Shown here: in pieces, positions 1,610 to 55,091 of the stretch
Layout: each line of letters starts with the position of its first letter
How positions within the stretch are numbered: the stretch's first letter is position 1
Assembly: GCA_025617745.1 (NCBI GenBank)
Contig: CM046858.1
Span: 30,208,534 to 30,272,533, forward strand
Origin: Heliocidaris erythrogramma
Lineage: Eukaryota; Echinodermata; Echinoidea; Camarodonta; Echinometridae
Reading direction: 5' to 3'
DNA length: 64,000 bases
Made by a program: the position numbers and the translations under genes
Notes under the pieces: model-generated
Database searches by the model: none
Told to the model about the DNA's origin: nothing
The model's input: only the letters and a program-made list of their open reading frames with translations

Positions 1610-2586
1610 GAAGCCGTAGAGACTCCACTAGAGATCTCTACAACTCTCGTCTAGGGGCCTTCTTTTCTTCGTGCGAGAATCAGGGTGTCTCGCCACGTGA
1701 AGCCCCTATTGGTGTTATTGCCGATTTTTTGATCTCCCTTTTCGATAAGGGTAGATCGATTTCAACCATACGTGGCTATCGTTCGGCTATTGCCGCCGTC
1801 CACGTTGGTTTTGCTGATGGTTCGGGAGTCTCCAACTCCCCTCTTTTGGCTAGGTTGGCTCGCTCCTTCTTCTTGCAGCGTCCATCAACTCGTAGCCTGA
1901 CTCCTTCTTGGAGTCTACCCAAGGTCCTTGACGTGCTTGCGAAGCCACCTTTTGAACCTTTGGGTAAAGCGTCCCTTCACCATTTAACGGTCAAGACGCT
2001 GTTTTTAGTTACTATTGCTTCTGCACAGAGGAGGAGTACTCTTCATGCTCTGTGTATCACACCGGGTCACATCCGTTGGGAGAACCATGGTGTGCGACTT
2101 ATACCCAAGCCCTCCTTTATTGCCAAAAATCAGACTGCTTCCTCTGGACCAGTTGAGATTTTTCTTAGACCGCTGTCGGACCATTCCTCGGTGCAGGAGG
2201 ATAAGGTCTGGTGTCCGGTGAGGGCCTTGAAATGGTATTTAGATAGGACTAAGACTCTTCGTAAGAGTGATCAGCTTTTTGTCATCACTCGAGAGCCCTT
2301 TTCCCCCGCTTCCAGAGAATCCATTTCTAGATGGATAGTCGAAGCGATCCAGGCAGCTGGGCCGGAGGCCCTATTAAGTGATGGGAAGCCCCGTGCTCAC
2401 GATACCAGGGGCATCAGTGCCTCTTGGGCTCTTTTCCAAGGGGTGCCCCTAGTGGACATTATGAGGGCAGCCTACTGGCGCTCCTCCACGTCCTTCACAT
2501 CTTTTTATTTGAAAGATGTTCTTTCTGTTGAGTCTTTTTCTAACAAGACGTTGCAAGCTGCAACGTCATCCTTGGGTTCCTGTTGA
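1606..2586 (+). CDS. DIRS tyrosine recombinase frame
   Basis: Integrase of the DIRS element, a phage-type tyrosine recombinase that replaces the DDE integrase of LTR elements. From the ATG at 1606 it is 326 residues: an N-terminal SAM-like core-binding part (STRDLYNSRLGAFF, then a FDKGRSISTIRGYRSAI segment) and a C-terminal catalytic part with an Arg in SAQRRSTL, the HDTRG box, and a terminal Tyr in SFTSFYLKDV. The frame is also open upstream to 667 beneath the RT frame, as expected for DIRS elements whose RT and recombinase frames overlap. The 1606 start is chosen because it overlaps the RT stop as ATGA; an upstream start cannot be excluded. Looks whole. Confidence 0.88.
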   Translation: MRSRRDSTRDLYNSRLGAFFSSCENQGVSPREAPIGVIADFLISLFDKGRSISTIRGYRSAIAAVHVGFADGSGVSNSPLLARLARSFFLQRPSTRSLTPSWSLPKVLDVLAKPPFEPLGKASLHHLTVKTLFLVTIASAQRRSTLHALCITPGHIRWENHGVRLIPKPSFIAKNQTASSGPVEIFLRPLSDHSSVQEDKVWCPVRALKWYLDRTKTLRKSDQLFVITREPFSPASRESISRWIVEAIQAAGPEALLSDGKPRAHDTRGISASWALFQGVPLVDIMRAAYWRSSTSFTSFYLKDVLSVESFSNKTLQAATSSLGSC

Positions 2587-2999: not shown

Positions 3000-3950
3000 T
3001 ATACATGTACACATTATTTCATTACAAATTATATACAGAAGGGAGCTTCAAGGGCAGCCTTGTCTATTACCACATGTAATTGGAAAAAAAATTGGAAGCA
3101 TGCCCATTGTTCAACACACATGAATATATTTCATTATACATAATTTTCACCCAGGATCTTCCCCAAAACTAAAGTATTTCAAAGCCTGAAACATAAAAGA
3201 CCATATATTCTAATTTATCAAAAGCCTTTTCAATATCGGCCATTAACATAAAACCAGGAATAGCATGTTCATTTGTAAATTCAATATTATCTAAAGCTAT
3301 TTCTCTCCAATGTACCGGCCATGTAGAAAACCTGTTTGGTCACTGCTAATAATACCGATTTTCCGTAGTCTAAGAGCTAAACTATAAACGATAAACGAAG
3401 AAGCTTGACTGGGGAGGAATTTTTAATTTGTAAACAAATCTTTAGGCATTTTACTCCCAGTGTTAAAGATCGTATGCTCGATCTGTAATGAAAAACACAA
3501 GTCAGAAAAAAATTGGAACCAGCGGGATTCGAACCTGTCATCTATACTGCTGGTGGTTAAGTCGCTGCCCGGCAAACAGTAGATGACAGGTTCGAATCCC
3601 GCTGGTTCCAATTTTTTCTGACTTGTGTTTTTCATTACAGATCGAGCATACGATCTTTAACACTGGGAGTAAAATGCCTAAAGATTTGTTTACAAATTAT
3701 AAACGATAAGTTTGTAATCTGTGTTCAATACAGAGATAGGTCTCCAATTCTTTAAAACGACGGATTTTGATCATTCTTGGGAATAAGGTTAATAATACCT
3801 CTTCTCTGATCCAATGATAATTTACCTTGTATACCGGTAAATGAATAATTGAAACTATTTAGCATGCTTTCTCCTAAATCTTTGAAGATGCGAGTAGATG
3901 GGGATGTCCCGAGATAGGGCCAGTTGAGGTCCCGCTTCGAAGATTGAGCG
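3000..3950 (-). pseudogene. Degenerate LINE reverse transcriptase fragment (L1/Tx1-like)
   Basis: Remnant of a non-LTR retrotransposon RT on the minus strand. Reading from 3950 downward, in changing frames, one sees LSLDQRRGIINLIPK, NWRPISVLNTDYKL, SSDQTGFLHGRYIGE, a segment ending in EKAFDKLEY, and NNGHAS followed by NRQGCP. This is the order and wording of RT blocks 1-5 in L1/Tx1-clade LINEs. Several frameshifts (for example between NPSF and the NWRPIS block) make it long dead. The catalytic FADD-type block is missing because the sequence stops at about 3000 where the DIRS element begins. A palindromic SINE (3394-3697) interrupts it between the DYKL block and the QTGF block. Clade assignment is from memory of motif wording. 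Confidence 0.75.
3394..3697. mobile_element. Palindromic tRNA-derived SINE, 11-bp target duplication
   Basis: A 304-bp insertion flanked by TATAAACGATA at 3383-3393 and 3698-3708. Its two halves are inverted copies: outer tails (ATTTGTAAACAAATC) face outwards and the tRNA-like heads meet in the middle. The B-box word GGTTCGAATCC is present in both arms (3582 region and its complement near 3530). The same family appears at 34071-34558 with a near full tRNA-like head. The target duplication in LINE sequence shows a copy-and-paste insertion; the inverted structure resembles twin-primed or head-to-head dimer products. Confidence 0.8.
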
Positions 3951-12045: not shown

Positions 12046-12203
12046 TTTTTCTTTTTCCATTCTGCCAATTGTTGGTTTTGATCTCATTCCCGCACTCATA
12101 CCTTTCTTTTCAATTGTTAGTTTCATTCACGACAAGCCTTGCATAGTAAATGTGTTTGAGCTCTTCCAGAGATGACAAAAATATTCAATTGATTTGAAAT
12201 ATA

Positions 12204-13018
12204 CACTAAAGGAAAAAAGAAACTTATAAAAGTTCAAGAGATCACCAAATTAAATTCTCTGCATGGAAATGTACCAAATTTGGATATAATGTTGATTCAA
12301 TGCATGGCTTTAAATGACAGTCAATAACAAAAAGTTTTCTTCAATGCCACAAAAGAAATGTGCACTGAAGCAAAGGACTCTCTAATCCCCAAGTCACAAA
12401 GACAAACTGCAGCCTTGTACACCATATGCATGTCAATGAATGAAACAAAAGAATTTCAAAAGGGATTTGCAAGTTCATATCCAAACAGATTAATAGCCAG
12501 TATGTCCACCTCTAGCTTGCTGGCAAGCTGTACACCGTCTTCGCATGCTTCCGATCAGATTCGCGATGGTAGCCTGGGGAACATTGTTCCATTCCTCTTG
12601 CAGTGCTGCAATGAGCGTCTCCCTATTGATGGGTTGATTGTCACGCCTTGACACACGTCGACCAAGCTCTTCCCAGAGATGTTCAATTGGGGAAAGGTCT
12701 GGTGAACGGGCGAACCATGGCAGAACATCAATATCCTCTTGCTCGAGGGGTGCAAATCCCTTTTGAAATTCTTTTGTTTCATTCATTGACATGCATATGG
12801 TGTACAAGACTGCAGTTTATCTTTGTGACTTTGGGATTAGAGAGTCCTTTGGTTCAGTGCACATTTCTTTTGTGGCATTGAAGAAAACTTTTTGTTATTG
12901 ACTGTCATTTAAAGCCATGCATTGAATCAACATTATATCAAAATTTGGTACATTTCCATGCAGAGAATTTAATTTGGTGATCTCTTGAACTTTTATAAGT
13001 TTCTTTTTTCCTTTAGTG
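12204..13018 (-). mobile_element. Tc1-like DNA transposon, internally deleted, 268-bp inverted repeats
   Basis: An 815-bp element flanked by TA (12202-12203, 13019-13020). The left arm 12204-12471 and right arm 12751-13018 are inverted copies of equal length starting CACTAAAGGAAAAAAGAAAC. The 279 bp between them hold the transposase C-terminus on the minus strand. With most of the transposase missing it is non-autonomous. The arms remain very similar, which suggests a fairly recent copy. Confidence 0.9.
12490..12750 (-). pseudogene. Tc1 transposase C-terminal fragment
   Basis: The C-terminal end of a Tc1/mariner DDE transposase: LPWFARSPDLSPIEHLWEEL carries the third catalytic residue (E of PIEH), followed by LGRRV, LQEEWNNVPQ, IGSMRRRC and ARGGHTGY before the stop, all family-typical. 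The two upstream catalytic Asp residues and the HTH DNA-binding region are absent. The frame continues into the right arm to 12807, which is not transposase. Confidence 0.85.
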
Positions 13019-13020
13019 TA

Positions 13021-14160
13021 TTATTACTTCTGGAAAAATGTAGATATAGATGTTGTATCCAGGAAATGGTTGTCTTACAATTGAACATCAAAAATTCAAT
13101 AGAATGCCCACCCCCCCCCCCCAAAAAAAAAAAATAACAAAACAAAACAAACAAAACTGATTAGCTTCCAAAGTGTGTTTCATTAACAAATTAAACAACA
13201 AATGCCATAAAAAATAACAGTCCTCATATGCCATTAACAATAGAGTTATCATTCTTGACTGAGATACATGCATCTTTACAACATCAATTACAAAAGACGC
13301 TCTGGGCAAATACTTAGATGTGAACTCAGTTACCCAATTCCAATTTTATTTCTGACAGTGAAAATGAATATTCAAAATAAGCCTCCTAGACTCCTCTTTT
13401 CCTCTGATACTTGAAGCAAAAACAGCAATAAAAATGTTACCACATTGTCACAGTGTAGCACACCCTCATGTCATAAACCCAACTTTCAGGGAAACTGATA
13501 TCCATGTATAGGAATTAAATATCATGAAAAGATAGACTGAACAATGACGTACTAGCATTTTTAACATTTCTTATAAACAGTTATATACATGATAAATGTA
13601 TATGCTATCTAAGCGTTATCAAGTTAACAACTAGACCAACATATATAAGTAAATAATAATAAATACAACAATAAATCAAATGAAAGAAGAAAAAAAAATC
13701 TGTAGAAAAAATAATGTCAATTTGAAAAGAAATATGATGTGAAGCAACAATAATGATGATCACATGAATGACCCGATTAAATAAAAGATGTTTGCCAGTC
13801 ATTAGTACTGAATATTTTTTTCTTTCAAATAATGACTTTGTGTAAATGTTTACACTGATGGAACAACAGTTCTGATACATAAATATTTTTAAAATGTTCA
13901 ATTCTACTATCACCTTTGCATAATGTTGAGATTTGTGCATGTCATATCCAAGCCCCAATAAAAAAAAAATGAGAATAATGGTTGCATAGCTTAAATTAAA
14001 GTTCCACAGAGCTGCCCTCCCTTTTGATTTTTTTTTGCAAAGGTTAAAAAAATATATATACATACAGTAAACTTTGAAAAGAAAATACCCTAAAGAGGTA
14101 AAATGCAGGGAATATTTCCAATTTAAAAAAAAATATCTTTGAAAATCTATCTTAGAACAG
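13021..14160. other. AT-rich DNA, nothing recognised
   Basis: Contains a C/A tract at 13109-13150 and a 152-codon minus-strand frame (13605-14063) of low-complexity, Phe/Ile/Tyr-rich composition with no recognisable domain. No splice-bounded exon supported. Confidence 0.4.
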
Positions 14161-15544: not shown

Positions 15545-15950
15545 AGGGAACAGACTGCCCCCCTAACAGCTTTTGACCCCCAAAAAAGTATAGGCGCCTA
15601 AAGTGTGCCACCCCTTTCTTTTAGAACTTTTTATAACCTTTTTTAAAATTCTTTTTTGCTTGTCATAGAATTATGGAGGAAAACAAAATCCCGCCTCCCC
15701 CCCCCCCCCACGAGCGAATACACACACCTCGATCACATGTCCTGGTTTATTTTACCCCCCCCCCCCCCCCCCCCCCCCCCCAGTCACCCGTATGGTTGTC
15801 ATTGATATAACGCGAGATGACCTTTATCCTGTTCACATACGAATTTTCAATTATATATCTTTCTTACAATCAAGATTTAAGGTGCAATTATTTTGCACAC
15901 GTCGATTCGGAAAGGCTTGTCTCGAATGGGTGGGTTGCGGGAGCGGGAAG

Positions 15951-16284
15951 CTAAATTTTTTTTCCCACGAACTTTTTGTCCCTGTCCTCCCTGGCGCATG
16001 CGCACCTGATCCTTCCGATCTAAATCAATTTCGAAATCATAGGGTTTATTCCGTAAGCGATATAATGACGGTTGCTCCCAGCGTCTTGCTGTGGCGAGAT
16101 GCGTTAACCCTCGGACATTTAACCTGAGGTATGTGGGTTCGACTCTCAGTTTGGACATTACAAAAATAACGTCTTGTATTTTTATTTTTACTAAAAGTAG
16201 GATGAAACAACTCCAAGCATTGTAGGGCTATTTCAAAGTTGCGCATGAGTCAAGGACGATAGTGACAAAAGGTTCGTGGGAAAA
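15951..16284 (+). mobile_element. Insertion with inverted ends and a tRNA-like promoter
   Basis: Interrupts the left arm of the 8.3-kb element. The ends are inverted (TTTTTCCCACGAACTTTTTG near 15958 and its complement near 16260). Inside are an A-box-like TGTGGCGAGATGCG (about 16090) and a B-box-like GGTTCGACTCT (16136-16146), the spacing of a Pol III tRNA-type promoter, suggesting a tRNA-derived SINE within or as part of the insert. The two readings (SINE or inverted-repeat element) are not resolved. Confidence 0.5.
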
Positions 16285-16368
16285 AAAAGTTCGCGAGCGG
16301 GATGGGAGCGGGATGGGAGCGGGATGGGAGCGGATGGGAGCGGGATGGGAGCGGGATGGGAGCGGGAA
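16285..16368. repeat. GC-rich 11-bp tandem repeat in the left arm
   Basis: About seven direct copies of GGGAGCGGGAT. The right arm has two to three matching units on the other strand (24200-24235), so this short array is part of the outer inverted repeat and has changed in copy number. Confidence 0.85.
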
Positions 16369-16653
16369 CACTGACCTCTACCACCTGTACGGATCATCGC
16401 CCATTCCCGCGCGTGCGAGCACTTGAAGTGGGCGCGGCCATGTTACTCTTCCGAGAGTGATGTGGTTTATTACACGTTACGCACTGAACATCTGTACTTG
16501 CCTGCGCGTTTTGACCATGGGCGTCCGCATGATTGTACCGTACACAATCTGTATTCCAGCTTTCTCGCGCGTTGATTTTTCAGAAGTGCAACATGGCGGA
16601 CCACGACTTCACTTCTCTGAGCCAATGAAATGTCCAGGTCGTAGAGGTCAGTG
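16369..16653. mobile_element. 285-bp MITE with 8-bp target duplication (hAT-like)
   Basis: Flanked by AGCGGGAA at 16361-16368 and 16654-16661. Inverted ends CACTGACCTCTAC / GTAGAGGTCAGTG. No coding capacity. The 8-bp duplication is typical of hAT and some other superfamilies. It interrupts the GC-rich 11-bp repeat of the host element, so it is younger than that element. Confidence 0.8.
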
Positions 16654-16707
16654 AGCGGGAACGGGCACACCCTTTCGAGACAAGCCCCCCCCCCCCCCCC
16701 CCCGGTT

Positions 16708-18021
16708 GCGTCTTTTTTTTTTGTAACCAAGCCTAGGCAGATTTCGCATTTTTTCATGAATATTCATGACGCAGGGGTCGGGAAACGGTTCCGATTGGTC
16801 TTCATGAAAGCACAGTCGCTGGTACGGTGTGGGGGAAAAAAGTCCCTGGCCTGCACGCACGTACGCATATTATGATCATATGTGTTCAACGTGTAGTCGC
16901 CTAGCCTACGTTTTTGCACTGAATCTATTATCGATGTAAGTTAGATCTTAATATAAGAGTTAGAATTGCCTCCACGTATCCCTCAAAATGCTGGCCTAAT
17001 AATAGACGTGTGGTAGACCCAACTTCAAAATGGAATCGGAATGTGATGGTGTGATATCATCAAATTTGCAGTCTAGCCAAGACTCTAACTACTCTAGATC
17101 TACTCTAACTAGACCAATTTTGTTACAATTTTCAATTTCAGTTAAGTTTAGATTAAGTGAATGTTATTTTAAGGTCAATGAGCATGATGAGTTAGACCTA
17201 GATCTAATCAGTAAATGATTGATGATGGGGGTAGATCTACATCTAGATGATTTTAGATCTACCTATAATAACTAGTTACGCACTTTGTTTTTAATCAGCT
17301 AAAAGGTCACCAAAATAATTTGTTTTCTTGGTACTAACGTTAGTAGTATTGGAACGTTAGTAGTAGTCTGCTTCTTTCAGTCCTGAAGACTCTTGCAGTT
17401 CTTCTAACTCCGGGCAATGTGCGTTACAGGAGCAGGTTGCAAGTGCTAATTAAAAGGAAATTTAATTTCTAACGTGAACAGTAAGACTCTAACGTTGTTA
17501 GACCTAGCCTAGAGTCTGTGTCTTGATTCTGCATATTGTAAAGTTCATTTGTGGAGAACATTACGATGGGCAATTGTCAATATATACGCATAGCCTAGGC
17601 CTAGACCTATTTTCAGAGTAATGCCAGTGGCAGTGTCAATTTTGGTCGGAAAAGGAGGGTGTCCTCAAAAGAGCTAATTACTAAATTAGATCTACGCACA
17701 TGCAATAAATTAATGCAAAACTTGATTTTGAAATTGACTGCTCAATCCAATTTTTTACGTGTCACATTGCATAGGTGGGGTGAATATATGTTAAGAATTA
17801 AACAATACATGAACGTAGGCTAGGCGCCTACACGTTGAACACACACGATCGAAATATAGCGCTGCACGTAATATGCGTACGTACGTGCAGGCCAGGGACT
17901 TTTCCCCCCCACCGACCGTGCTTTCATGAAGACCAATCGGAACCGTTTCCCGACCCTGCGTCATGAATATTCATGAAAAAATGCGAAATCTGCCTAGGCT
18001 TGGTTACAAAAAAAAATGACG
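16708..18021. mobile_element. 1.3-kb MULE-like element with ~220-bp inverted repeats
   Basis: 1314 bp, inserted at CCCCCCGGTT, which is present on both sides (to 16707 and 18022-18031; 9-10 bp, exact length hidden by the C run). Arms 16708-16920 and 17812-18021 are inverted, starting GCGTC(A/T)TTTTTTTT, then TGTAACCAAGCCTAGGCAG. The ~890-bp centre (16921-17811) is rich in TCTAGA-like words and shows no transposase. Target duplication length and long arms fit Mutator-like non-autonomous elements. It sits in the left arm of the 8.3-kb element at a point intact on the right (24155-24175). Confidence 0.8.
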
Positions 18022-18581
18022 CCCCCCGGTTATCTCGAATGGACGCGTTCCCAGCGAGAAGTTCAATGAACGCGCCACTTCGAGACAACCGGGGGGGGGG
18101 GGGGCTTTCCTCGAATGGGTATGTTGAGTAGACTTTTGTAACAGACGTTTTAGAAATTTTTGAAAAATGTACTCTTGCTGTTTGTTTTTTTTTCGTTTTT
18201 CTTTTGTCTAAGATGTAGAAAATATAATAAAACAGTATCTAAAAAAAGCTTTTGACAAGGAAATCATTATTTGTGCAAAAAAAATAGGAGAATTTGATAA
18301 TTATGCATTAAAACACACGGGGACGAAAGGGCAAGTGGCGTAGCTAGGATTTTTGTATTTATTTATTTATTATTATTTTTGTTTGGCGTGACCTGGGCCC
18401 CGTAACATAAAGAGTGTTTAGCTGATATCGCTGAAAGCATGACTGGAAAAATGAGGTAAGTACCTCCGTTTTATTCATATTATATGACGATGTCAATATA
18501 TTTTAATAAATCATGACAATAATTATGTAAAATTCTAATGTAAGTAGCATTCTATGACAATGAATTTGTGCGGGGTAACCT

Positions 18582-19345
18582 CGCTAGTCATAAGGGCCGC
18601 TAGTCATAAGGATCAGTGGCTCATAAGGACCGCTAGTCATAACGTGTAATTTCCTATACCTGTAGGGTCGCTATTCATAAAGCGAAAAGGGGGTCACTAT
18701 TCATAAACTCATAAGGAGCATTATTCATAAGGATTGCTATTCATAATATGAGAAGAGGGTCGCTATTCATAATCGAAGAAAAGGGTCATTACTCATAAGG
18801 GCCGCTATTCATAATAAGTCATAAGGGTCGCTATACATAATACAGATACAGGGTCGCTATTCATAATACCAAATCGGGGTCGTTAATCATAAAGGTCGCT
18901 ATTCATAAAGGTCAATATTCACAAGGGTCGCTATTCATAAAGGTCAATATTCATAAGGGTCGCTATTCATAATCGGAGAAGAGGGTCGCTATTCATAATC
19001 AGACAAGAGGGTCGCTATTCATAATCGGAGAAGAGGGTCGCTATTCATAATCACAGAAGAGGGTCGCTATTCATAATCACAGAAGAGGGTCGCTATTCAT
19101 AATTGAAGAAGAGGGTCGCTATTCATAATCACAGAAGAGGGTCGCTATTCATAATCAAAGAAGAGGGTCGCTATTCATAATCAGAGAAGAGGGTCGCTAT
19201 TCATAATCGAAGTAGAGGGTCGCTATTCATAATCAGAGAAGAGGGTCGCTATTCATAATCGAAGATGAGGGTCGCTAATCATAATCAAAGAAGAGGGTCG
19301 CTATTCATAATCACGAAAGAGGGGCGCTGTTCATAATCGAAGAAT
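18582..19345 (+). repeat. Left subterminal minisatellite array (26-bp unit)
   Basis: About 15 regular units of 26 bp (18958-19345) with core GAGGGTCGCTATTCATAATC followed by AGAGAA or a variant. The outer part (18582-18957) consists of shorter 16-20 bp core-only units (GGGCCGCTAGTCATAA type). It is the mirror of 22425-23010. The A/T-rich TATTCATAA centre is the best-kept part. No open frame crosses it. Confidence 0.95.
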
Positions 19346-19915
19346 ATCTTAGGGTTAGGATTAGATATTATAATATGATTTTCATTGTTCAATGAACACT
19401 CAAATATGAAAGAACAAAAATAATAATATTGGATGGGATCTAGACAACCCACGGCTGTGTCGAGCCAATATGGGGACGGGCGATGAAACAAATACACCCC
19501 TTAAAAACAGGCGAGAGCAAAAAAGCGTGAGGAAGCGGAGGAAGAGAACGATAAAAGCTACGAAATTTGCGTCAGTATTCGCGCTTCCCGTGGGGAAAAC
19601 GTCTGAGGGACCCCCCCCCCCCCCTCTCCATGCACCCACCCCTGTTACATACAGTGCAGTATTGCGACGAGCCATTATCTTTATCTCAGATTTGCTATAA
19701 AACGTCAGAGCTTTCGCACGGGAGGGGGAAAACCATATAGTTACATACCCCTAACAACTCTATGGGGGAATCTCCCCCTCCCTGCATCCATCCCCCTGGG
19801 GAGCACGCAAAGAGTGCTCATCACCAAATTGGCACGCTTCGCGGGCTCACAAACGCCCCATATTGAAAAATCCTGGCTACGCCTGTGTCACCCCCCCCCC
19901 CCCCCCCCCCCCATC
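19346..19915. repeat. Dispersed repeat (same family at 61.85-62.2 kb)
   Basis: Begins in low-similarity sequence (TTAGGGTTAGGATTAGAT near 19350), then shows words shared with 61850-62215 (GAGCCATTATCTTTATCTCA, GGGGAGCACGC.AAGAGTGCTC, ATTGAAAAATCCTGGCTACGCCTG). Two C runs. Short frames here are not genes. Confidence 0.6.
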
Positions 19916-20094
19916 AGTCCGATCACGTTGCGCTATTCTACCCATCTTGTTTCGGTACAAGCACATAGTACTGACAATTTTCGTCAAAGCAATTCATAAA
20001 TGGCATAGTCTGTGTGCGGGTGGCGAGGGGGGGGGGGGGGTGCTGTAGTAGGTGTTGCCACCAGGTGTTGTTCTATCATGTCCATAATCCTCAG

Positions 20095-20940
20095 AGATAG
20101 GCGAGATAGCTCAGAGGTCGAACAGTGGCTTTGTAACTGAAGGATGCGTGTTTGAAACCAGGATGCACTCATGTCCTTTGGTAAGGCATTAACCTCAAGT
20201 CCCTCGGAGAGGACTTAACCCTAATCGGCCCGGGGGCGGATTCCCCCCCCCCCCCTCGACCTTTCGCGTAATATGTTCGCATTGCGAAAAGCAGTCACCA
20301 CGCCGCTTCACTACTTTTTTCTTTCAAGTCTTGCGCAACTTTTGAGACCAAATTTGTGATGTCCGCGCGTGCGGTTCCGGAGTTACCCAACATTTCGTAA
20401 GTGCATGTCAGACCCAAAATTGTTTCGTGATTTCGTGTACAAATCCAATCCAAATTGTGTTTCCAGCTAAAATTCATAAATGTTTCATTATTTTTACTTT
20501 TACTGTTTAAAAACAATTAATTTTATGTTGTTTAGGATTAAAATATAGTGTCGCCGACAAATTCCATCGAAAAAACAATAAAAAACATAAGAAAAAAAGG
20601 ATTTTTACCGGTTTATTTGATCAGAATCTGACAAAGAGTCTCTATACCAAAAATTAGCAGTTTTGGGGCTTTAATTAATTAATTAGAGCAAATTAATTTT
20701 ATGCATAAATTAGCATAATTAATTAGTTATTAAATTTTTCGGAGAAATTGACTATACAGTTTTGTAGATTACGTGGTCGGCGACGTGTGTGCCGATTTTC
20801 GTTGCGAATGCGAGGTGGACGGCCGAGATCTTAGGGGGCGGAATCAGCCCCCACCCCCGGCTGTGAGATGGGTCTAAAATAACCCGGCTCTGTTAGGGTT
20901 AAAGCCGTTGGTCCTGTGGTTGTTTACATACAACCAATAC
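20095..20940 (+). mobile_element. tRNA-derived SINE, interrupted at TTAA
   Basis: The head has an A-box-like TAGCTCAGAGGTCG (20107-20120) and a B-box-like GTGTTTGAAACC (20148-20159); the body reads CCTTTGGTAAGGCATTAA then CCTCGGAGAGGAC (to 20214). The body resumes at 20903 as GCCGTTGGTCCTGTGG. Removing the insert 20219-20898 and one TTAA gives a continuous SINE body. Confidence 0.75.
20219..20898. mobile_element. 680-bp piggyBac-type non-autonomous element at TTAA
   Basis: Flanked by TTAA at 20215-20218 and 20899-20902. Ends CCCTAATCGGCCCGGG and the complement of CCCTAACAGAGCCGGGTT are inverted; CCCT- ends with a TTAA duplication are the hallmark of piggyBac elements. No transposase. The inside is AT-rich with three TTAATTAA words (20674-20745). 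Confidence 0.8.
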
Positions 20941-22424
20941 GCTTTACAGTATAAAGAAATGGGAATAAATTTGATAGAATTGAATTAAGATCAAACAAAC
21001 ATAGAAAATACATGATGCGCATGCCATTGTAATGGGGGGGGGGGGGTGGCCTGTAGGATTGGCTTGTATCATCCCCCCCCCCCCCCCGCAATAATTCACC
21101 TTCAATAAATGACATGATCAAATAATATGATCAGGAGGAGGATGACCATGATGATTATTATTCATAGGATCACGATCGATCAACATGGTGATAATTTTTG
21201 TCATGATTTTTGTTAAGATTATGATAAGGAAGACCGAAATAAAGATTTCAAAGAATATAATGAAATAAATGAGTTAGTAATTACCATGAAAGAACATGCA
21301 CTCAAATGCTCTGAGAGGTGATTTTTAACTCGGGGAAATTTGAAAGTCCCAACCGTGGGAGGGCATACATCATTCTCATCCATGCCCATAAACAGGGGCA
21401 CACTGTAAAAACGGTAGATGCCAATAAATTGTACGTTACTAAAATCACGTATTATGAAAATATTACTATCCCACCCCAAAATAAAAACGAAAACAAATTT
21501 TTCGCGGCAATTTCTAAGCCCGTATCCGGACAACTACCCCTACAACTAATCTCCAGGACAAATACCCCCTACGAGAATCCCACCCCCCCCCCCCCCCTCC
21601 TCCCCGCCCAACTTTCCCCTCATCTCCCCCCAAATGGACGATTACTGGAACTTGAGATAAAGGCTAAGGATTAGGTCTTCACAGGAGTTGAGAAACGGGA
21701 GGATCTGGATGATTCAGTGATTCATTTATTGTCATGCAACAAGGATACAAATTGTGTTACAATCTGATTTCCCAATTTCAAGCATAAAAAATTGCACGTG
21801 ATGGATAAGAATGAATACAGAAAAATATATTAATGCACATGTATCAAAACTATATTAACACATTGAGAAAGAGGCATGACAATAATTATTCCATGATAAA
21901 TCTACGTAAACAGTATACAAAAGGAAATAAGAGTACAAACAAGAGGTCCATGTCTTGCAGAAAACCATGCAGAAACAAAGAAACAAGAAGCTGGAAAAGG
22001 AAGGAAAGAGGAAGAGAGAGAGAGAGAGAGAGAGGAGGAAAAAGAAAAAAGAAAGAACGAAAAGGCTACATAAATAGACAACCAGTACTTCCCCTAACTC
22101 TAAAATAGGTGTGGCAATGACACTCCAATATTCAAAACAAAGCACATGTCTGCGTGTATGTGGGTGTGTGGATGGGGGGGGGGGGGGGTCCTCTCCTCCC
22201 ACGTAGATGTATGGATTAGACATCGTTTTTTTAATTATTAAGGCACTGGCAAAGCGCCTTTCAAAATGTGGGGAGTATTGATAAATATAGTTCACTTTTT
22301 TAGAAAATAGGGATATATTTGACAAAAACCGGAAATGCATTGTATAGAGCTTTCTTAAATACAATACCGTTGGGCCTTGGGTTGTCCTTCCTCCATATCC
22401 CTTTCTTATCTGATATAAATGACA
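20941..22424. other. Core of the 8.3-kb element, nothing coding recognised
   Basis: Contains G/C tracts (21034, 21075, 21585, 22176), a (GA)n stretch (22015-22034) and AT-rich DNA. Minus-strand frames of 104 and 169 codons (21219-21533, 21855-22364) are low-complexity and match no family I know. A transposase would be expected here if the element were autonomous; none is seen. Confidence 0.5.
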
Positions 22425-23010
22425 ACCCTCTTCTTTGATTATGAATAGCGACCCTCTTCTGTGATTATGAACAGCGACCCTCTTCTCCGATTATGAATAG
22501 CGACCCTCTTCTGTGATTATGAATAGCGACCCTCTTTTGTGATTATGAATAGCGACCCTCTTCTCCGATTATGAATAGCGACCCTCTTATGTGATTATGA
22601 ATAGCGACCCTCTTCTCCGATTATGAATAGCGACCCTCTTCTGTGATTATGAATAGCGACCCTCTTTTGTGATTATGAATAGCGACCCTCTTCTCCGATT
22701 ATGAATAGCGACCCTCTTCTTCGATTATGAATAGCGACCCTTATGAATATTGACCTTTATGAATAGCGACCTTTATGAATAGCGACCCTATTTTCGTATT
22801 ATGAATAGGGACCCTTATGATTAACGACCCTGATTTGGTATTATGAATAGCGACCCTCTTTCCATATTATGAATAGCGATCCTTATGTCTTATTATGAAT
22901 GGCGGTCCTTATGAATAATTACCCTTATGAATAGCAACCCTTATGTCTTATTATGAATAGCGGTCCTTATGAATAATTTTTTTTATGAATAGCGGTCCTT
23001 ATGACTAGCG
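22425..23010 (-). repeat. Right subterminal minisatellite array (26-bp unit, inverted)
   Basis: About 12 regular 26-bp units (22425-22740) of GATTATGAATAGCGACCCTC, the complement of the left array, followed by shorter core-only units (22741-23010). The order regular-inside, short-outside mirrors the left array, so the two arrays are parts of extended inverted repeats, not independent expansions. Confidence 0.95.
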
Positions 23011-23232
23011 AGCAGACCCCATTTGTGCATATATAAAGATGAAAGCTGATATTTTACCGGAATTAAGACGCCTTTTTATCCTATCGCGCAACCCTGTTTC
23101 AGTGGCAAGAAGCACACGCTGACGGAACAACCAAGGGTCCTTCGCCCGTGATCTCCGGCAAACCTCGCGTTGCTTGCCCGGTGGGTTGTGTACAGCAGAA
23201 TTGTTTTCTGACTTGGACGATGCAAATTTCAT
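23005..23232 (-). CDS. 75-codon basic reading frame inside the foldback element
   Basis: Starts MKFASSKSENNSAVHNPPGK and continues with QREVCRRSRAKDPWLF and ETGLRDRIKRRLNSGKISA. Highly basic, with a codon-like GC-richer composition unlike its surroundings. A GTAAAA donor-like site follows RLNSG, so the coding part may end near 23055 as a first exon. I do not recognise it. It could be a captured host exon or the N-terminus of a lost transposon protein; chance is also possible at this length. Confidence 0.3.
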   Translation of the reverse strand: MKFASSKSENNSAVHNPPGKQREVCRRSRAKDPWLFRQRVLLATETGLRDRIKRRLNSGKISAFIFIYAQMGSAR

Positions 23233-23250
23233 TGTGCTTGTAAAACTAAT

Positions 23251-23579
23251 TTGTTATGATGGTATTATTATGACCCATGTCTCCTACTATTTCTTAACAC
23301 ACTTGGGCAAACCCACAAAATGGGCCGGATTTTTTCCAAGCTATTAATAAGGCCAACCAATAACAACATTCAACAGGCAGGCCCACTATGTTAAACAACA
23401 GTAATAATATTAATAACTACATGCAACAGGCAGGCCAAACATTTGGGCCTGCCTGTTGCAAGCATGTTGTTATTGATTGGCCTTATAATAGCTTGGAAAA
23501 AAATCCGGCCCCTATTTTGTGGGTTTGCCCAAGTGTGTTAAGAAATATGACATGGGTCATAATAATACCATCATAACAA
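23251..23579. mobile_element. ~330-bp hairpin element
   Basis: Arms of about 145 bp (23251-23395 and 23435-23579) are inverted and nearly identical: TTGTTATGATGGTATTATTA opposite its complement, GGGCAAACCCACAAAAT opposite its complement. Loop of about 40 bp. It lies between the right array and the right arm with no counterpart on the left, so it is probably a later insertion. Confidence 0.8.
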
Positions 23580-25334
23580 ATACACAATTAGTTTTAGCTG
23601 GGAAATGTGGAATTGTCATAGTCTCAAGACAAGTCGTCACGTGTTATTTAAATTCATTGCAAAAATTAATAACGATTGATCGCTATGAATCATGCTCTAA
23701 TAGCCTTTGATTGAAAGGGGGGGGGGGGGCTTTGTGTTACGGATTTTAGCGATTGATTGCCATTAGCGCTTGATCGGAGTTTATAAACACTCTTTATGTT
23801 ACGGGGCCCAGGTCACGCCAAACAAAAATAATAATAAATAAATACAAAAATCCTAGCTATGCCACTTGCCCTTTCGTCCCCGTGTATTTTAATGCATAAT
23901 TATTCAATTCTCCTATTTATTTTCCACAAATAATGATTTCCTTGTCAAAAGCTTTTTTTTTAGATACTGTTTTATTATATTTTCTACATCTTAGACAAAA
24001 GAAAAACGAAAAAAAAAACAGCAAGAGTACATTTTTCAAAAATTTCTAAAACGTCTGTTACAAAAGTCTACTCAACACACCCATTCGAGGAAAGCCCCCC
24101 CCCCCCGGTTGTCTCGAAGTGGCGCGTTCATTGAACTTCTCGCTGGGAACGCGTCCATTCGAGATAACCGGGGGGCCTTGTCTCGAAAGGGTGTGCCCGT
24201 TCCCGCTCCCATCCCGATCCCATCCCGCTCCCGCAACCCACCCATTCGAGACAAGCCATTCGGAAATACAGTTAGATTTTCTCACATTTTAATGAATATT
24301 TTCCTACATACAGAAATGAGAACAGTCTTTAGAGATGTTTAGACATTGTCTTACTTCTTAAATATACGTTTAATTCTTTTCCTTACTCTTTCAAGAGTTC
24401 CATTACAGCTGACTTGTCAAGGTCATATAATATCATTCTCATCTTGACAGAACAAATATGTACATGCATTAAAAGAATTATGAATTTCAATCTAATTGAA
24501 TCATACATTATTTATTTTAATCCCTAGTCAAGAGGTAAAATATTTGAATTTTCACTGGAGAAATAGATACTATTAATAATTTACCCACTATACCCCACAA
24601 AAGAAGATATAATTAAAAGAAATAAATGACCATCTATAATTTTGTTCAACACACACACCATGTAATACTCTTGAAAAACAAAGATAATGTTGAGTCTTGT
24701 TGACAGTTCTAAGAAATATGAATTAAATGATTCATCTTCCTTTTAGTTGGTACATATATATTGCATATTAATAGTATTAAAAGTCTAACTAAAGAAAAAT
24801 GGAGGGGGGGGACACACACACAGATCTAATTCTATAGTTTTAATCTAATTAACAGGGATGTAAATTAGAATTGATAAAAAAGTGGGAAAATCATCTAGAA
24901 TGGGCCCTTGTGTACATAAAAAGTGGTTTTCTATGGCTATAAATATGTTGATAAAGTAGGAATTCCTACTTTTGTCTGAAAAGTGGCATCCCTGAAATAA
25001 AGTGTTGAATAGTATGGATTTTCTCTGTAGATCAATAATAGAATAATAATTCAATTAGCACAAATTCATAGAATCAGTTAATTATTATTATTAATTTGTT
25101 ATACATGGTGAGAAGATATAATAATGGAGAGGCCAAGTGGCCCTGGCAGTGCTTATCTGCATTTCATTAGCGGCCATGTAATGTCACTAGGCCACATAGA
25201 AGAGGAAGACCTCCTCACAATAACGAGCTACTACACAAAATGGCTGCATGTGACTGCAACATTTGACATGGGGAGGGGGTGGGTAAGATGGTTAAGATAT
25301 AATTGAAGAACTTTAAAACTCCTCTTCCGCCATT

Positions 25335-33489: not shown

Positions 33490-34070
33490 CGCACCTCGAT
33501 CACACCCCCATCCCCATATGGTTCATGTCATTGATATAACGTGAGAGGACCTTTATCATTTTCACATGCAAATTTTCAATAACAATTATCTTTCTTACAA
33601 TCAACATTCAAGGTGCAATTTTATGCACATGTCAATTCGGGAATAGTTAGATTTTCTCACTTTTTAATGAATATTTTTGTACATGCAGAAATGATAACAG
33701 TTTTTAGAGATGTTTAGACATTGTATTACTTCTTAAATAAACCCATCATTTATCTGCAGTCATACTCTTTCATGAGTTCTATTACAACTGACTTGTCATG
33801 GTCAAATAATATCATTCTTTTCTTGACAGTAGTACAAATATGTACATGCATTAAAAAAATGAATTTCAATATAAATGAATCATACATTATTAATTTCAAT
33901 CCCTATTCAAGAGGTAAATTATTGAATTTACACTGGAGAAATAGATACTATTAACTTTTTACCACTACACCCAACAAAAGAAGAAATAATAAAAGAAATA
34001 AATGACCATCTAATTTCCATGTTCAATACGCACACCATGTTACTCTTGAAAAACAGATAATGTGAGTCTT

Positions 34071-34558
34071 TAAACGAAGAAACTTGATGGGAGGAATTTT
34101 AATTTGTAAACATTTTTTTAGGCATTTTACTCCCAGTGTTAAAGATCGTATGCTCGATCTGTAATGAAAAACACAAATCAGAAAAAAAAAAATTCTGACT
34201 TGTGTTTTTCATTACAGATCGAGCATGAGATTTTTAACACTGGGAGTAAAATGCCTATTTTAATTTGTTTACAAATTAAAATTCTTCCCATCAAGCTTCT
34301 TCGTTTACTAACCATTGTCTACGGCGGACTGTTGAATATTAATGAGTCAGAAAGAAGAGGATCTTGGGTATTTGATTCCAGTTCATCGTGACTTGGCCGT
34401 GAACCAGAATAGCCTGGTGGTTAAGTCGCTGCCCGGAAAGCAGTAGATGACAGGTTCGAATCCTGCTGGTTCCAATTTTTTCTGACTTGTGTTTTTCATT
34501 ACAGATCGAGCATACGATCTTTAACACTGGGAGTAAAATGCCTACAAATTTGTTTACA
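34071..34558 (+). mobile_element. tRNA-derived SINE compound insertion, ~12-bp target duplication
   Basis: Flanked by AATGTGAGTCTT (34059-34070; again at 34559-34570); copy A has one version of this site near 24693. The first ~240 bp is a palindrome of the SINE tail; the rest is a SINE in normal orientation with a tRNA-like head. Same family as 3394-3697. Confidence 0.8.
34401..34474 (+). ncRNA. tRNA-like SINE head
   Basis: A 72-nt tRNA-like fold: 7-bp acceptor stem GAACCAG/CTGGTTC, a D arm (TAGC with GCTG) and a T arm with GGTTCGAATCC (34453-34463). The anticodon arm does not pair, so it is a SINE promoter head, not a working tRNA. Confidence 0.65.
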
Positions 34559-39257: not shown

Positions 39258-42200
39258 GAGCATGATGGAAAGCGTTCACCATCAAATTTGACATGAATCA
39301 GTGCATGGTGGCCCAAGGTATGGCTATATGAATATCTAATTAGCCCCATTGAAGTCAGTGTAAATTGGCCTGTTTCTTAAGTTTAAAACCAGGCCAATTT
39401 AACACCGACTTGTAAAATCAGCACTGATTTTCTTATTTACTATATAAATCTATATACCTACCTATGACCCTCCCTCCTTCCCCTCGCCTTGCAAGCAACA
39501 TGCCGTTGCGTATTGCTGCGGGTGAGTGGCGAAGGGGAGAACAATAGGATTACGGGGTGCGCACAATGTTGTGACTCATTTGTGTCAAGTTCTCGTAGTC
39601 AAGTGACTAGCATAATAGGTAGGTATATAGGTAAGTCTAAAACGCGCAGCCCCTGCCCGCGCGCGCATACTCCCCGTCCACCAAACTCTTCCTCTTCCGA
39701 GCAGTCAGAGACAGATCTAGGACATGATGTCAGACAAGGAGAGGGGCTGGAGGGAGGGACATAGGTAGATACATAGATTTATCTAGTAAATAACAAAATT
39801 AGTTATAATTTTCTTGATTTACAGCAATAAATCGATCTATCTACCTATTTGCTAGAATAGCACGGATAAAAACCCGGGTGGCATGTCGCAGGGCAGGAGT
39901 GAAGACGAAAAACAGCTCTCCACCCAGAGGTAGCAAGGCCAACCTCACCCGAAAGAGCATCCTTAAAAAAGAAGGATGTGAAAGAGAAAAAGGGAAACGC
40001 CAAAGGCAGCCCGCAAGATATCTTCCAAAGGAATACCCTGAAAAAAACGCCCAGGAAATAGAAAACTCCTGGTATTGTGCGCTCTTGGAGGATCCTCAAA
40101 CAGAAGAGCCTCCCAACCCACAGCTTGGATAGCCTTGACAATCCCACGACGCTGGGGAAAAAGGGTGACGGGAAAGGAAAGAGCTGATCATCCTTACAAA
40201 AAACCTTAGTCCTATCCAAGCGCCATTTGAGTGCCTAACAGGGCACCAAAGACTTGCCTTCAATGGCAGAAGAGAATTCTGACAGAGGACTCAAGAACAC
40301 TTCGATTGAGCCAGAAGAATCCGTCTGATTCTTAGCAATAAATGAAGGTCGAAGAACAAGACGTACACCTTGCCTTTCCCCATCTGATATGCCCGGGCGC
40401 CGTAGAGAGAGCCTGAATAGTGCTTCTCCTCAGCCCAAAGCAATAGCGACGAGAAAGGCGGTCTTAATCGAGAGATGGTGTAATGACGCTTTGCACAACG
40501 GCTCAAAGGGGCGGTTTGGCCAAGGCGTCCAAAACCAAAGGAAGGCTCCCCGCAGGAGTCAACTGGCGATTTGCTGGCCGTTTAAAAAAGAACGACCTCA
40601 GCAAATGAGTCAAGAAGGGAGAGTTTGAAACTCCTGAACCATCAGAAAAACCAAGGTGAACCGCAGCCATAGCGGACCGGTAACCATGAATGGTAGCGAG
40701 GGACCTGCCCTTATCGAAAAGGGCGATAAGGAAACCGCAATAGCACCCACCGGGGCAGAACGGGAAGAAAATCCCTTCTCCCCACACCAAGCATGGAAGG
40801 CTTCTAACTTCGAGTTGTAAACAGCCCGGGTAGAATCTCTTCTGCTCTGGACTATGAACTGGGAGGCTCTCTCTGAGAGTCCTGCCGTCCTCGCATCCTC
40901 CCTGATAGAGGCCAGGCGGTCAAATGTAGAGCCGCCGGGCGATGGTGGAGGATCCCCGATAGGGGCTGAGCTATGAGGTCTGCTCTCCGGTGAAGGGAGA
41001 CAGGCCGACCATCCAGCAGAGACAGAAGAAGAGGAAAACCAAGGTCTCCTCGGCCAGCAAGGTGCTATGAGCAGAAACCATGCCTGATCCCCCTGAATCT
41101 TCCCCAGGACCCGAGGAATTAAGGAGACTGGCGGAAAAGCGTAACCCCAGAATTTCTTCCACTGAAGGGAGAACGCATCGAGGGCCCAAGCTTCCGGATC
41201 TCACCCTCGAGAGCAGTATCTCGGGAGGCGATGATTGAGAGCTGTCGCAAACAGGTCTATCTCTAGAGGGGCGCAGACTGAACTGAGGTAGTCGAAGACC
41301 TCTTGATTCAGTGTCCACTCGGAGGGGAGACACATGCCCCGGGACAGAAAAAATGCAATAGGATTGTCCTGGCCGGGACCATCTCCAAGCTTGGCGGTCA
41401 AGATCATTCAGAGAACGGAACGAGACCCGCCTTTTCGGTTGGAGTAGGCAGCAACAGAAGTGTTGTCCGTCCAAAACAGGACGGAGCGACCTACAATCAT
41501 GTTTCCGAAAAACGGGAGACATGAAGACTGCCATTAACTCCACTGATGTGTGACCAGAGCCCCGAGACCAACCTGGCCCGAACAAGGGCCGCCCCACCCC
41601 AGAAGTGAGGCATCCGTCTAGACGGTGACTGACGGAAGGGGCGTGCGAAGAGACTTGCCTTGAAGAAGGAACAACTCTTTTGGCCAGGGGGAAAAACATG
41701 CGTTTGATTCCCTCGTGAGAGGAATCCACACCACGAGAGAGTCTACATTGGGCTTTGATAAACTTCAGATGAAGTTGGAATGGCCTCGTATACAGCCGAC
41801 AGTCTTGGAGGACATCCACAAGGCTCGATAAGTGGCCCAAGAATTGGAGCCACCGGCCTGCCCGAACTCGACGTAAGAGACGAAGAGATCGAGCTAGTAA
41901 GGCAATTGCTTGAAACCTATCCCGCTAGGGCGGGCAACTTGGTTCACGATGTCTATTTCCTCATCCGGATAATTGGGCCTGCAGGTAGGAGTCAACTCCG
42001 ACTTATCCCAATGGACTATGAAACCCTACTCTCTGTGGGTACAAAGAAGTAGGTCCATGTGAGACTGAAGGACGGACACAGAGCTCGCCACCAAGAGCCA
42101 GTCGTCCAGATAGTGAAAAGTCTCAGACCGCCATCCCGAGGAAAGCGGCTAGGACAGAGACTACTCGAGTAAAATTTGAGGTGCTGGTATCAGGCCGAAA

Positions 42201-52780: not shown

Positions 52781-52845
52781 TTCTGGTTGGGCACTGAGAC
52801 TATACCAAGCCCCAGAAACAGGGTGTGCCAGTAACCCTATTATTC

Positions 52846-52876
52846 CATTGGTCAACACATTGACCAATATGCAAAT
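52846..52876 (+). promoter_or_regulatory. Palindromic CCAAT pair and octamer
   Basis: ATTGGTCAACACATTGACCAAT (two inverted CCAAT boxes) runs straight into ATGCAAAT, the POU octamer, 10-40 bp ahead of the ATG of the next candidate exon. The combination is promoter-like but lies very close to the ATG. Confidence 0.35.
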
Positions 52877-52885
52877 TAGCCCAAG

Positions 52886-53936
52886 ATGCTGATGCGGGGG
52901 AACATAGATACCCCAAATCTACCCACTCAGCATCAGAAGTCAAGAGAAAGTTCTATAGTCCAGAGGTGTTACCATTTTGCAAAGTATATTAAAGTTGAAG
53001 AGATCGATCGAACTGGAGGTCAAACAATCGGTGAGTTGAATATATGTTCTTCGTATAATTATTATTATATTGTATTATCATGCTGTATCAAGTTAGGTAA
53101 GATTTAGAATGGATTTAACCAATAAGTATAACTATAAGTATAAGCTGTTGGTTAAGTATATCGCAGTATTGTGTGCATACACAACCAATACACTACTTTC
53201 TAATGCTTCTCCAAAGGGTGACATACTTGGGAGAGAATATTGTCTGTAGGATATCAGTCATTGAAGTATTTACCTGTTGATAATGAAAGTGTAGATTCAT
53301 GAATCTTCTCATTACATATATGTTACTGACGTTGTACATTATAACCCGATTGTTCATCCTAAATGGGAAGGTCTATTTAGGAACAGAGAGAGAGAGAGAG
53401 AGAGAGAGAATATCACAGTATTGTACATAGTAGGGGGCAGTTAACAGTAAAGACTTGTCTAGCCCTTGTTCTTAGCTGTACGGCCTTGGTCTGTCAATGG
53501 CCAGAAGTTTGGTATAATTTATGGCGTTGCCATGGGTACGAAGTTCTGGGAGAGAAGTGTTTACACAACTGTTCTGTTCAGTAGTATCAGGATTTAAGTT
53601 AGTTCGGATGTAGCGATTTCATCTAAGTAGTGATTGGTTCATTTATTGGGACAAAACCATAATATTAGGTTGTTTATTGTACATAGTTTACACTCATGTG
53701 TAAACCCGTAGGGTTAGTATTGCGAATTGCTATTTTCTCGTTTATTAAGGAACATGTTTTGCTTGAAAAGAATTATAATTCTTTAAGTCTGTAATTTTGT
53801 GATTGATTATCGATCATACATTCATGATGTATTATCTTCTTGTATTACAGCGAACCACTGTACACCACACCACTCTATGACACACTCACTGCACGTTCAC
53901 AATTGTTGTTTGTTTTGGACTGCTTCAGCTGTTTAG
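52886..53936 (+). CDS. Candidate two-exon small gene, unrecognised
   Basis: Exon 1 (52886-53030) starts MLMRGNIDTPNLPTQHQKSR and ends ..DRTGGQTI at donor ATCG|GTGAGT. Exon 2 (53851-53936) follows acceptor TTGTATTACAG and continues in phase as ANHCTPHHSMTHSL.. to TAG; an AATAAA lies at 53950. Joined length is 76 residues across an 820-bp GT-AG intron. No known domain. Good splice sites and a polyadenylation signal favour a real transcript; coding status is doubtful (His/Thr-rich second exon), so a non-coding RNA is possible. Confidence 0.3.
53383..53408. repeat. (GA)n microsatellite
   Basis: About 13 GA units inside the intron of the candidate transcript. Confidence 0.9.
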
Positions 53937-53959
53937 ATTTGTCTTCTACAATAAAATGA

Positions 53960-55068: not shown

Positions 55069-55091
55069 TAACATTGACACCGTGTCAATGT
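55069..55091. repeat. Short palindrome AACATTGACAC/GTGTCAATGTT
   Basis: An 11-bp perfect stem. The half word GTGTCAATGTTAC recurs at 63647 and nearby. Confidence 0.5.

Follow-up and report, generated by a model that had tools for sequence, protein, structure and literature searches.

The locus at 15914-24257 is very probably a nest of elements, in which a non-autonomous transposon of about 1.56 kb with terminal inverted repeats (TIRs) holds the separate foldback element FB1 and four smaller TIR or hairpin insertions (Table 1). The transposon of about 1.56 kb would have entered copy A of a local segmental duplication, and insertion into this copy is shown by its ends and 9-bp duplication together with the empty site of copy B. 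A second foldback element, FB2, is present elsewhere in the window, which is the whole stretch of 64,000 nucleotides that was analysed. The first-pass annotation had read the TIRs and the inward inverted minisatellite arrays as parts of one element; the arrays are real, but they are the arms of FB1, which has its own 8-bp duplication. The undescribed family proposed there from the combination of both features is likewise not supported, as arrays and outer ends belong to separate elements.

Table 1. Coordinates of the outer element, its nested inserts, FB2 and the paralogous segment in the window.
Feature	Position	Strand	Description	Evidence
Outer TIR element as it stands	15914-24257		8344 bp, nested inserts included	
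Outer element, duplication, left copy	15905-15913	+	9-bp target site duplication ATTCGGAAA	sequence, duplication scan
Outer element, duplication, right copy	24258-24266	+	9-bp target site duplication ATTCGGAAA	sequence, duplication scan
Outer element, left TIR	15914-18420	+	split by inserts A, B and C	piecewise alignment to right arm
Outer element, right TIR	23784-24257	-	474 bp, uninterrupted	arm alignment
Insert A	15949-16294		346 bp, TIR close to GCGAACTTTTTTTTCCCACGAAC	arms 48/58
Insert B	16369-16653		285 bp, termini CACTGACCTCTAC, 8-bp duplication AGCGGGAA	alignment, scan
Insert C	16708-18022		1315 bp, termini GCGTC(A/T)TTTTTTTTTGTAACC, 9-bp duplication CCCCCGGTT	alignment, scan
FB1, nested foldback element	18572-23020		4449 bp, termini GGGGTAACCTCGCTAGTCATAAGG / GGGGTCTGCTCGCTAGTCATAAGG	ends, duplication, scan
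FB1 duplication, left copy	18564-18571	+	8-bp target site duplication ATTTGTGC	exact repeat, scan
FB1 duplication, right copy	23021-23028	+	8-bp target site duplication ATTTGTGC	exact repeat, scan
FB1 left arm	18572-19344	+	16- and 26-bp tandem units (GGGTCGCTATTCATAA...)	repeat analysis
FB1 right arm	22414-23020	-	array as inverted copy	repeat analysis
Central hairpin	23243-23594		insertion in the middle of the outer element	self-inverted match 23249-23581
Paralogous segment B	33505-34070	+	empty site (ATTCGGGAA, one copy, ~33635)	alignment
FB2, second foldback element	58562-61307		2746 bp, related 16-bp units, GGGGT left end	scan, array alignment
FB2 duplication, left copy	58554-58561	+	8-bp duplication ATATAAAG	scan
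FB2 duplication, right copy	61308-61315	+	8-bp duplication ATATAAAG	scan

Ends, target duplication and empty site of the outer element

The inverted ends of the outer element are identical over the 35 bp (35/35) that run up to the first insert (GGCTTGTCTCGAATGGGTGGGTTGCGGGAGCGGGA); these are the GGCTTGTCTCGAATGGG ends of the GGCTTGTCTCG TIRs. The exact 9-mer ATTCGGAAA was found at two places on the forward strand of the window, both abutting the outer element, and at none on the other strand. The earlier claim that inverted ends and a 9-bp duplication define this element is thereby confirmed, and so is that of an uninterrupted site in copy B, given before as ~33637, as the joined flanks of the outer element with one copy of the repeat align to copy B with 214 matches, 31 mismatches and 9 gap columns.

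The TIRs, described in the first pass as ~475 bp long, are whole on the right side, whereas the left counterpart is spread by three inserts over four pieces (15914-15948, 16295-16368, 16654-16707 and 18023-18420), the alignment of the third to the right arm reaching 16691. Left and right arms agree at 35/35, 37/38 and 382/389 aligned bases, with 41/44 in a short tandem array, and 8 of the 462 aligned bases of the three non-array pieces differ. The flanks of segments A and B differ at 31 of 245 positions, gaps left out, and from these two divergences the outer element inserted after the A/B duplication. Without inserts A, B and C and FB1 the outer element measures 1916 bp, and without all nested inserts and their duplications about 1.56 kb (the hairpin subtracted by hand), this core being a reconstruction from one loaded copy.

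In the intact right arm, tandem repeats are confined to 24201-24232 (11-bp unit), and the TIRs of the outer element are not dominated by tandem-repeat arrays as foldback TIRs are, the large arrays being those of FB1. The same arm carries five copies of the motif TTGTCTCGAATGG in alternating orientation, and its outer 182 nt, taken as single-stranded DNA, are predicted to form two back-to-back hairpins (z = -5.39, 0 of 200 shuffles as good). The 13-bp terminal motif has 31 matches in the window at up to 3 mismatches (17.8 expected by chance) and, at up to 2 mismatches, 11 matches, 10 of them inside the outer element; the outer 21 bp, searched with up to 3 mismatches, match at five places in the window, all within the outer element and none near FB2. 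The ~80-bp units of the outer arms, in which the 13-bp motif recurs in alternating orientation, were considered as nested mini-elements and rejected; since they are common to both arms, they were treated as part of the TIR.

Duplications were scanned for as abutting k-bp direct repeats with at least 15/20 inverted terminal bases, palindromic or near-palindromic words being dropped, and the same was done in 30 block-shuffled windows. At 9 bp the scan gives three places in the window (shuffle mean 0.07, maximum 1), including the outer element with 20/20 inverted terminal bases, and at 8 bp five places (shuffle mean 0.23, maximum 2, n = 30). At 10 bp two places were found and at 7 bp three, namely insert A, the stretch 51835-60061 and, out of register, insert C (shuffle mean 0.53 and maximum 2 at 7 bp). 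The place at 55375-56100, which scores at 8, 9 and 10 bp, was set aside as no element, being a C-run beside a 283-bp direct repeat. A looser first scan (14/20 terminal bases, palindromes unfiltered) had given 23 places against 0-3 in five shuffles; because many of these were palindromic 8-mers in longer inverted repeats, which match by construction, palindromic words were filtered and 15/20 was required.

Nested inserts and foldback elements

Exact duplications show FB1, insert B and insert C to be separate insertions, and insert A and the central hairpin are supported less surely. Insert A has a 7- or 8-bp duplication (GAGCGGGA), the length of which is ambiguous because of its position within the GAGCGGGATGG array, and the scan detects it at k = 7 only, with the ends one base off. 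Insert B is presumably hAT-like, judging from the size of its duplication, and insert C is a second Mutator-type candidate. Between its two terminal repeats insert C has 10 differences over 203 positions, more than the outer arms have, whereas simple ageing would leave fewer in a younger insert. The central hairpin, which has, apparently (by eye), TA on both flanks, is taken here to be Tc1/mariner-like.

The termini of FB1 follow the pattern GGGGT...CTCGCTAGTCATAAGG; 17 of the 20 outermost bp pair, and the exact ATTTGTGC directly adjoins both ends. Each arm is an array of a 16-bp unit, inverted between the two sides, with a 10-bp spacer over much of its length. FB2 has inverted arrays with a 16/42-bp period (16/26-bp in FB1), and its right end is GGTTACAGCCC and not GGGGT; the best alignment of its arms is shifted by about 48 bp, and end-to-end pairing is found in the first ~20 bases alone (16/20). 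Both FB1 and FB2 thus have the features of foldback elements, namely long inverted arms of tandem repeats and their own 8-bp duplication abutting inverted termini. The ends of FB1 and FB2 have a short terminal block, which is GGGGT at three of the four, with the 16-bp unit directly next to it.

The arrays of FB1 and FB2, compared over four arm pairs, give alignment scores of 16, 18, 16 and 15, while structure-keeping controls (seven per arm pair) all fall below the real score (7-14 overall); for four unrelated arrays in the window the scores are 8-12. One control, made by reversing the array and exchanging G with C, comes to 14 against the real 16. The similarity of the units is uneven: for the four unit pairs tried, the observed match is attained by 3, 235, 1191 and 5521 shuffles out of 20,000. 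FB2 has related arrays and an 8-bp duplication with the outer ends absent nearby, which indicates that the arrays travel with the 8-bp-duplication ends and not with the 9-bp element. It is conceivable, and rather improbable, that a foldback lineage exists with FB1 and FB2 as two diverged members, its arrays beginning at the very end of the element and its cut being of 8 bp; the whole arm would then act as a graded ladder of binding sites for a transposase new to foldback elements. FB1 and FB2, two related foldback elements whose ends are defined to the base and which carry 8-bp duplications, are ready queries for a transposase in the host genome.

Mobilisation, transposase searches and alternative readings

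Each element may owe its movement to a DDE transposase acting in trans from a gene at another place. For the outer element this would be a Mutator-type enzyme making a 9-bp staggered cut and reading the TTGTCTCGAATGG motif, and for FB1 a different enzyme, making an 8-bp cut and reading GGGGT and the 16-bp units; the tandem copies of the unit could then serve as repeated binding sites, expanding by slippage or unequal exchange.

The earlier statement that the element has no recognisable transposase is borne out by the open fragments that were compared with Pfam. Among 104 stop-to-stop fragments of the outer element (at least 35 aa from the FB1 interior, at least 40 aa from 16370-18571 and 23021-24257) no credible transposase domain was found; nine families appear at E 0.1 with one member each, and the best E value, 0.0043 (Amastin), is at chance level over 104 queries. 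A further 12 fragments (35 aa or longer) come from the region of insert A (15914-16369) and from the two arrays; ten of them were also scanned, with no Pfam match at E 0.1. The scanned fragments of the outer element contain neither a MULE transposase, as expected of a non-autonomous copy, nor an IS1595-type DDE domain. In 29 fragments of the FB2 interior there is no credible transposase domain and no DDE_3, the best Pfam match being 0.0086. For the rest of the window, 149 of the 156 listed fragments (five at the edges of the outer element and two overlapping the FB2 arrays were omitted) gave 13 Pfam families at E 0.01, including reverse transcriptase (1.1e-9) and DDE_3 (0.0056). A scan with Rfam at gathering thresholds was empty, and ARAGORN (bacterial code) found no tRNA. 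The FB1 unit has no matches in viral contigs and two single 18-mer matches in genome contigs (L001, Thiothrix; L002, Anaerolineae MAG), where about seven would be expected by chance at the stated size of the collection. One match of the outer end to a viral contig (L003), of 19-20 bp and with nothing else of note there, was taken as chance.

Other readings of the locus were weighed against the nested one. It is very unlikely that the 475-bp TIRs and the inward inverted arrays form one inherited architecture, that is, a single foldback element. In favour of it, one pair of inverted repeats lies concentrically within the other, and a true 9-bp duplication and an empty site go with the outer ends. 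On the other side, the module of arrays is bounded by termini and an exact 8-bp duplication of its own, related FB2 arrays occur without the outer ends, and a 31-column match in the hairpin is all the homology that the two sides of the outer element share between TIR and array. Nested insertion can mimic a new transposon architecture, since two inverted repeats around a common centre, flanked by a single clean duplication, pass for one element as long as the inner duplication goes unnoticed. A formerly present element may have been excised from copy B, as the 2-bp gap 3 bp downstream of the site would allow; this has the slightest probability, because the site is a single, nearly identical copy with no residual duplication or terminal bases, and the divergence of the outer arms is far below that of A and B.

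The nested reading has a variant, with which its probability overlaps, in which a progenitor at another place had already taken up FB1 and the other inserts before the outer element, loaded with them, moved into copy A. The difference between the outer arms (non-array) and the larger one between the insert C ends in the left arm agree with this order of events, and there is no sign that the inserts postdate the arrival of the outer element. This order is nevertheless unlikely, as the three left-arm inserts break the TIR, which should lower mobility, and a second loaded copy is not known.

Superfamily placement and comparison with known systems

From the size of its duplication and its long palindrome-rich ends, the outer element may fairly be placed, as a putative non-autonomous member, in or near the Mutator superfamily, with Merlin as a live rival. 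Target duplications of MULEs are given as 8-11 bp (PMC6446971), and the 9 bp of ATTCGGAAA is the length typical within this range. The outer element resembles non-autonomous Mutator-like elements in its 9-bp duplication and TIRs of hundreds of bp; no transposase was found in its scanned fragments, so that its membership is putative. The Mutator-like mobilisation put forward in the first-pass annotation stands as a fair inference from the 9-bp duplication, although Merlin is compatible as well. For Merlin elements, PMC8101967 gives a conserved 5'-GG at the terminus, duplications of 8 or 9 bp and a TIR length of 24-462 bp. The outer element begins with GG and has 474-bp TIRs, slightly above the quoted range (PMC8101967), and a 9-bp duplication; its assignment to Merlin rather than Mutator is still held to be improbable, as Mutator is where most foldback-like elements that combine long repetitive TIRs with 8-10-bp duplications are placed, some exceptions being stated (PMC4079207, PMC3169594). 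The 9-bp duplication is also shared with Rehavkus, which is described as having a minisatellite before the 3' TIR and a PHD-finger transposase (PMC6446971); here, the large minisatellites are those of the nested FB1, and no transposase was found in the scanned fragments.

The likeness to foldback elements noted earlier applies to the nested FB1 and not to the 9-bp element. The sea-urchin TU elements of Liebermann and colleagues reportedly combine 8-bp duplications with long inverted repeats whose outer domain consists of ~15-bp tandem repeats, and FB1 and FB2 look similar to them by this description. Sea-urchin foldbacks are cited in PMC4079207, where the Tetris and Foldback-like elements of Drosophila are described with long TIRs containing tandem-repeat domains, a variable non-coding middle and 8-10-bp duplications. 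The architecture of FB1 and FB2 is like theirs by description; the units of Tetris are of ~220 bp (PMC4079207), against 16 and 26 bp in FB1/FB2, whose duplications are of 8 bp. Composite TIRs with a variable copy number of a short tandem motif, and nested insertions in some copies, are also described for the Tm1 Mutator/Foldback family of root-knot nematodes (PMC3169594), which has mostly 9-bp duplications and a Phantom-like transposase, whereas the duplications of FB1 and FB2 are of 8 bp.

Ends, arms and empty site of the outer element

The outer element, a transposon with terminal inverted repeats (TIRs), is real: its ends are perfect inverted copies over 35 bp, as far as the first insert, and an exact 9-bp direct repeat abuts both of them, which bears out the boundaries drawn in the first-pass annotation. 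The empty site claimed for segment B, the paralogue of the copy A that carries the element, holds as well: ATTCGGGAA is present once at an uninterrupted site, and the element's flanks, joined by one repeat copy, match segment B at 214 positions and mismatch it at 31, with 9 further columns gapped. The window was scanned for direct repeats of set length abutting ends whose 20 terminal bases pair in inverted orientation at 15 or more positions, using 30 block-shuffled windows as control, after removal of palindromic or near-palindromic, low-complexity and very common words; the palindrome filter was introduced after a looser first scan had given 23 places, many of them palindromes within longer inverted repeats. 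Three places were found at 9 bp (shuffles: mean 0.07, maximum 1), namely the outer element (20/20 inverted terminal bases), insert C (19/20) and position 55375, which rests on a C-run next to a direct repeat. Five were found at 8 bp (mean 0.23, maximum 2): insert B, the foldbacks FB1 and FB2, a 720-bp element nested in FB2, and 55375.

The TIR length proposed earlier (~475 bp) agrees with the about 474 bp found here; however, the repeat is continuous only on the right. The left TIR is dispersed right-arm sequence, its pieces matching the right arm at 35/35, 41/44 (a short GAGCGGGATGG array), 37/38 and 382/389 aligned bases, gaps aside, and its breaks are occupied by inserts A, B and C, all of which have inverted ends and a direct duplication. 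Within the right arm, the outermost 182 nt contain five copies of the motif TTGTCTCGAATGG (up to two mismatches) in alternating orientation and, when folded as single-stranded DNA, two back-to-back hairpins (z = -5.39; 0/200 shuffles as good).

Outside the GAGCGGGATGG array, 8 of 462 aligned bases differ between the outer arms, and 31 of 245 between the flanks of copies A and B. If the arms were identical at insertion, the A/B duplication would long predate the element's arrival in copy A, which makes the ancestral state the simplest reading of segment B. The 2-bp gap near the site in B is unlike the usual excision footprint; precise excision of a once-present element from B is very improbable. 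Arm-to-arm gene conversion would give the outer element too young an apparent age, and the ends of insert C, within the left arm, differ more than the outer arms (10/203); arm divergence is therefore only a rough clock.

Features of the locus and of the surrounding window
Feature	Position	Length	Duplication	Termini or remark
Outer element	15914-24257		ATTCGGAAA, 9 bp	
Right TIR	24257 to 23784			unbroken
Left TIR	15914-18420			split
Insert A	15949-16294		7 or 8 bp, ambiguous within GAGCGGGATGG array	
Insert B	16369-16653		AGCGGGAA, 8 bp	
Insert C	16708-18022		CCCCCGGTT, 9 bp	
Promoter-box motifs	16100-16155; 20098-20165			insert A; FB1 middle domain
FB1	18572-23020	4449 bp	ATTTGTGC, 8 bp (18564-18571; 23021-23028)	GGGGTAACCTCGCTAGTCATAAGG; GGGGTCTGCTCGCTAGTCATAAGG
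FB1 arrays	18572-19344; 22414-23020			inverted
Central hairpin	~23243-23594			apparent TA flanks (by eye)
Empty site, segment B	~33635			
Segment B insertion	34071-34558		AATGTGAGTCTT, ~12 bp, direct	
Related hairpin	3420-3703			
Inverted arms	12201-12471; 12751-13021	271 bp		98% alike, 279 bp apart
Long frame	571-2586			
Diverged inverted copy	39749-41378			67% identical
FB2	58562-61307	2746 bp	ATATAAAG, 8 bp	GGGGTCATCCCTATAGCTAGAAGG (left); GGTTACAGCCCTATAGCTAGAAGG (right)
Element nested in FB2	59873-60592	720 bp	CCTGACAA, 8 bp	CAGTGTTATAGCTA; hAT-like
Direct repeat flanking FB2	58362-58450; 61314-61402	89 bp		94% identical

Minisatellite arrays and the remaining core

The inward minisatellite arrays had been taken as part of the outer element; they are the arms of FB1, a complete foldback in its middle, as seen from an exact 8-bp repeat immediately outside the array pair, inverted termini directly within it, and the 8-bp scan. 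The single 8.3-kb unit keeps its boundaries and loses its unity, and the locus is most probably a nest of ordinary non-autonomous transposons.

The second foldback, FB2, also has inverted arrays, and past the first ~20 bases its arms align best with a shift of about 48 bp. Its arrays are relatives of the FB1 arrays. Comparing the arms in four pairings gave scores of 16, 18, 16 and 15, with all seven tandem-structure-keeping controls per comparison below the real score (7-14 overall, top 14 vs 16), and four unrelated window arrays scored 8-12. The best unit pair is identical at 13/16 positions (3 of 20,000 shuffles equally good), and the other three are weaker (235, 1191 and 5521 of 20,000). 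The terminal 21 bp of the outer element have five matches in the window, none near FB2. Within the limits of one window, FB2 supports the separation, and arrays therefore accompany ends of the foldback type with an 8-bp duplication rather than GGCTTGTCTCGAATGGG ends with one of 9 bp. The right copy of the direct repeat around FB2 begins where the right duplication of FB2 ends, possibly a flank duplicated at or before insertion.

Without inserts A, B, C, FB1 and their duplications, the outer element measures 1916 bp, and also without the central hairpin about 1.56 kb by hand (1573 by script, with narrower hairpin limits), about 950 bp of which is TIR; so stripped, it is MITE-like and non-autonomous. 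No credible transposase domain was found among 104 open fragments of the locus, in the 10 of 12 further fragments scanned from insert A and the arrays, or in 29 from the FB2 interior; the rest of the window yielded one fragment with a weak resemblance to DDE_3 (E 0.0056). By eye, insert A and the FB1 middle domain carry tRNA-like promoter-box motifs, which suggests captured SINEs; ARAGORN and Rfam reported nothing.

Other repeats in the window

The long frame has a sub-threshold tyrosine-recombinase family match (E 0.0089), and much of it recurs in the diverged inverted copy; both are possibly remains of a DIRS-like retroelement. The window also has a reverse-transcriptase match, many hairpins and many tandem arrays, which, with the recombinase-like frame, is consistent with a mobile-element-rich animal genome. 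Segment B has an insertion of its own, absent from segment A and related to the hairpin listed with it, and the 271-bp inverted arms form another hairpin-type element.

Classification and comparison with known elements

MULE target duplications are of 8-11 bp (PMC6446971), and the majority of foldback-like elements are seemingly Mutator, with exceptions (PMC4079207). Mutator is modestly favored for the outer element, whose 9-bp duplication and TIRs several hundred bp long suit it. Merlin, an unlikely assignment, is also compatible: its elements end in GG, their TIRs measure 24-462 bp and their target duplications are of 8 or 9 bp (PMC8101967). Rehavkus, as described in PMC6446971, shares the 9-bp duplication and has a minisatellite preceding the 3' TIR, whereas the large minisatellites here belong to FB1.

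Their anatomy makes FB1 and FB2 foldback elements, and two clean new copies of this kind are a useful by-product of the analysis. Sea-urchin TU elements have units of about 15 bp and 8-bp duplications, and FB1 and FB2 look similar to them in unit size and duplication length.
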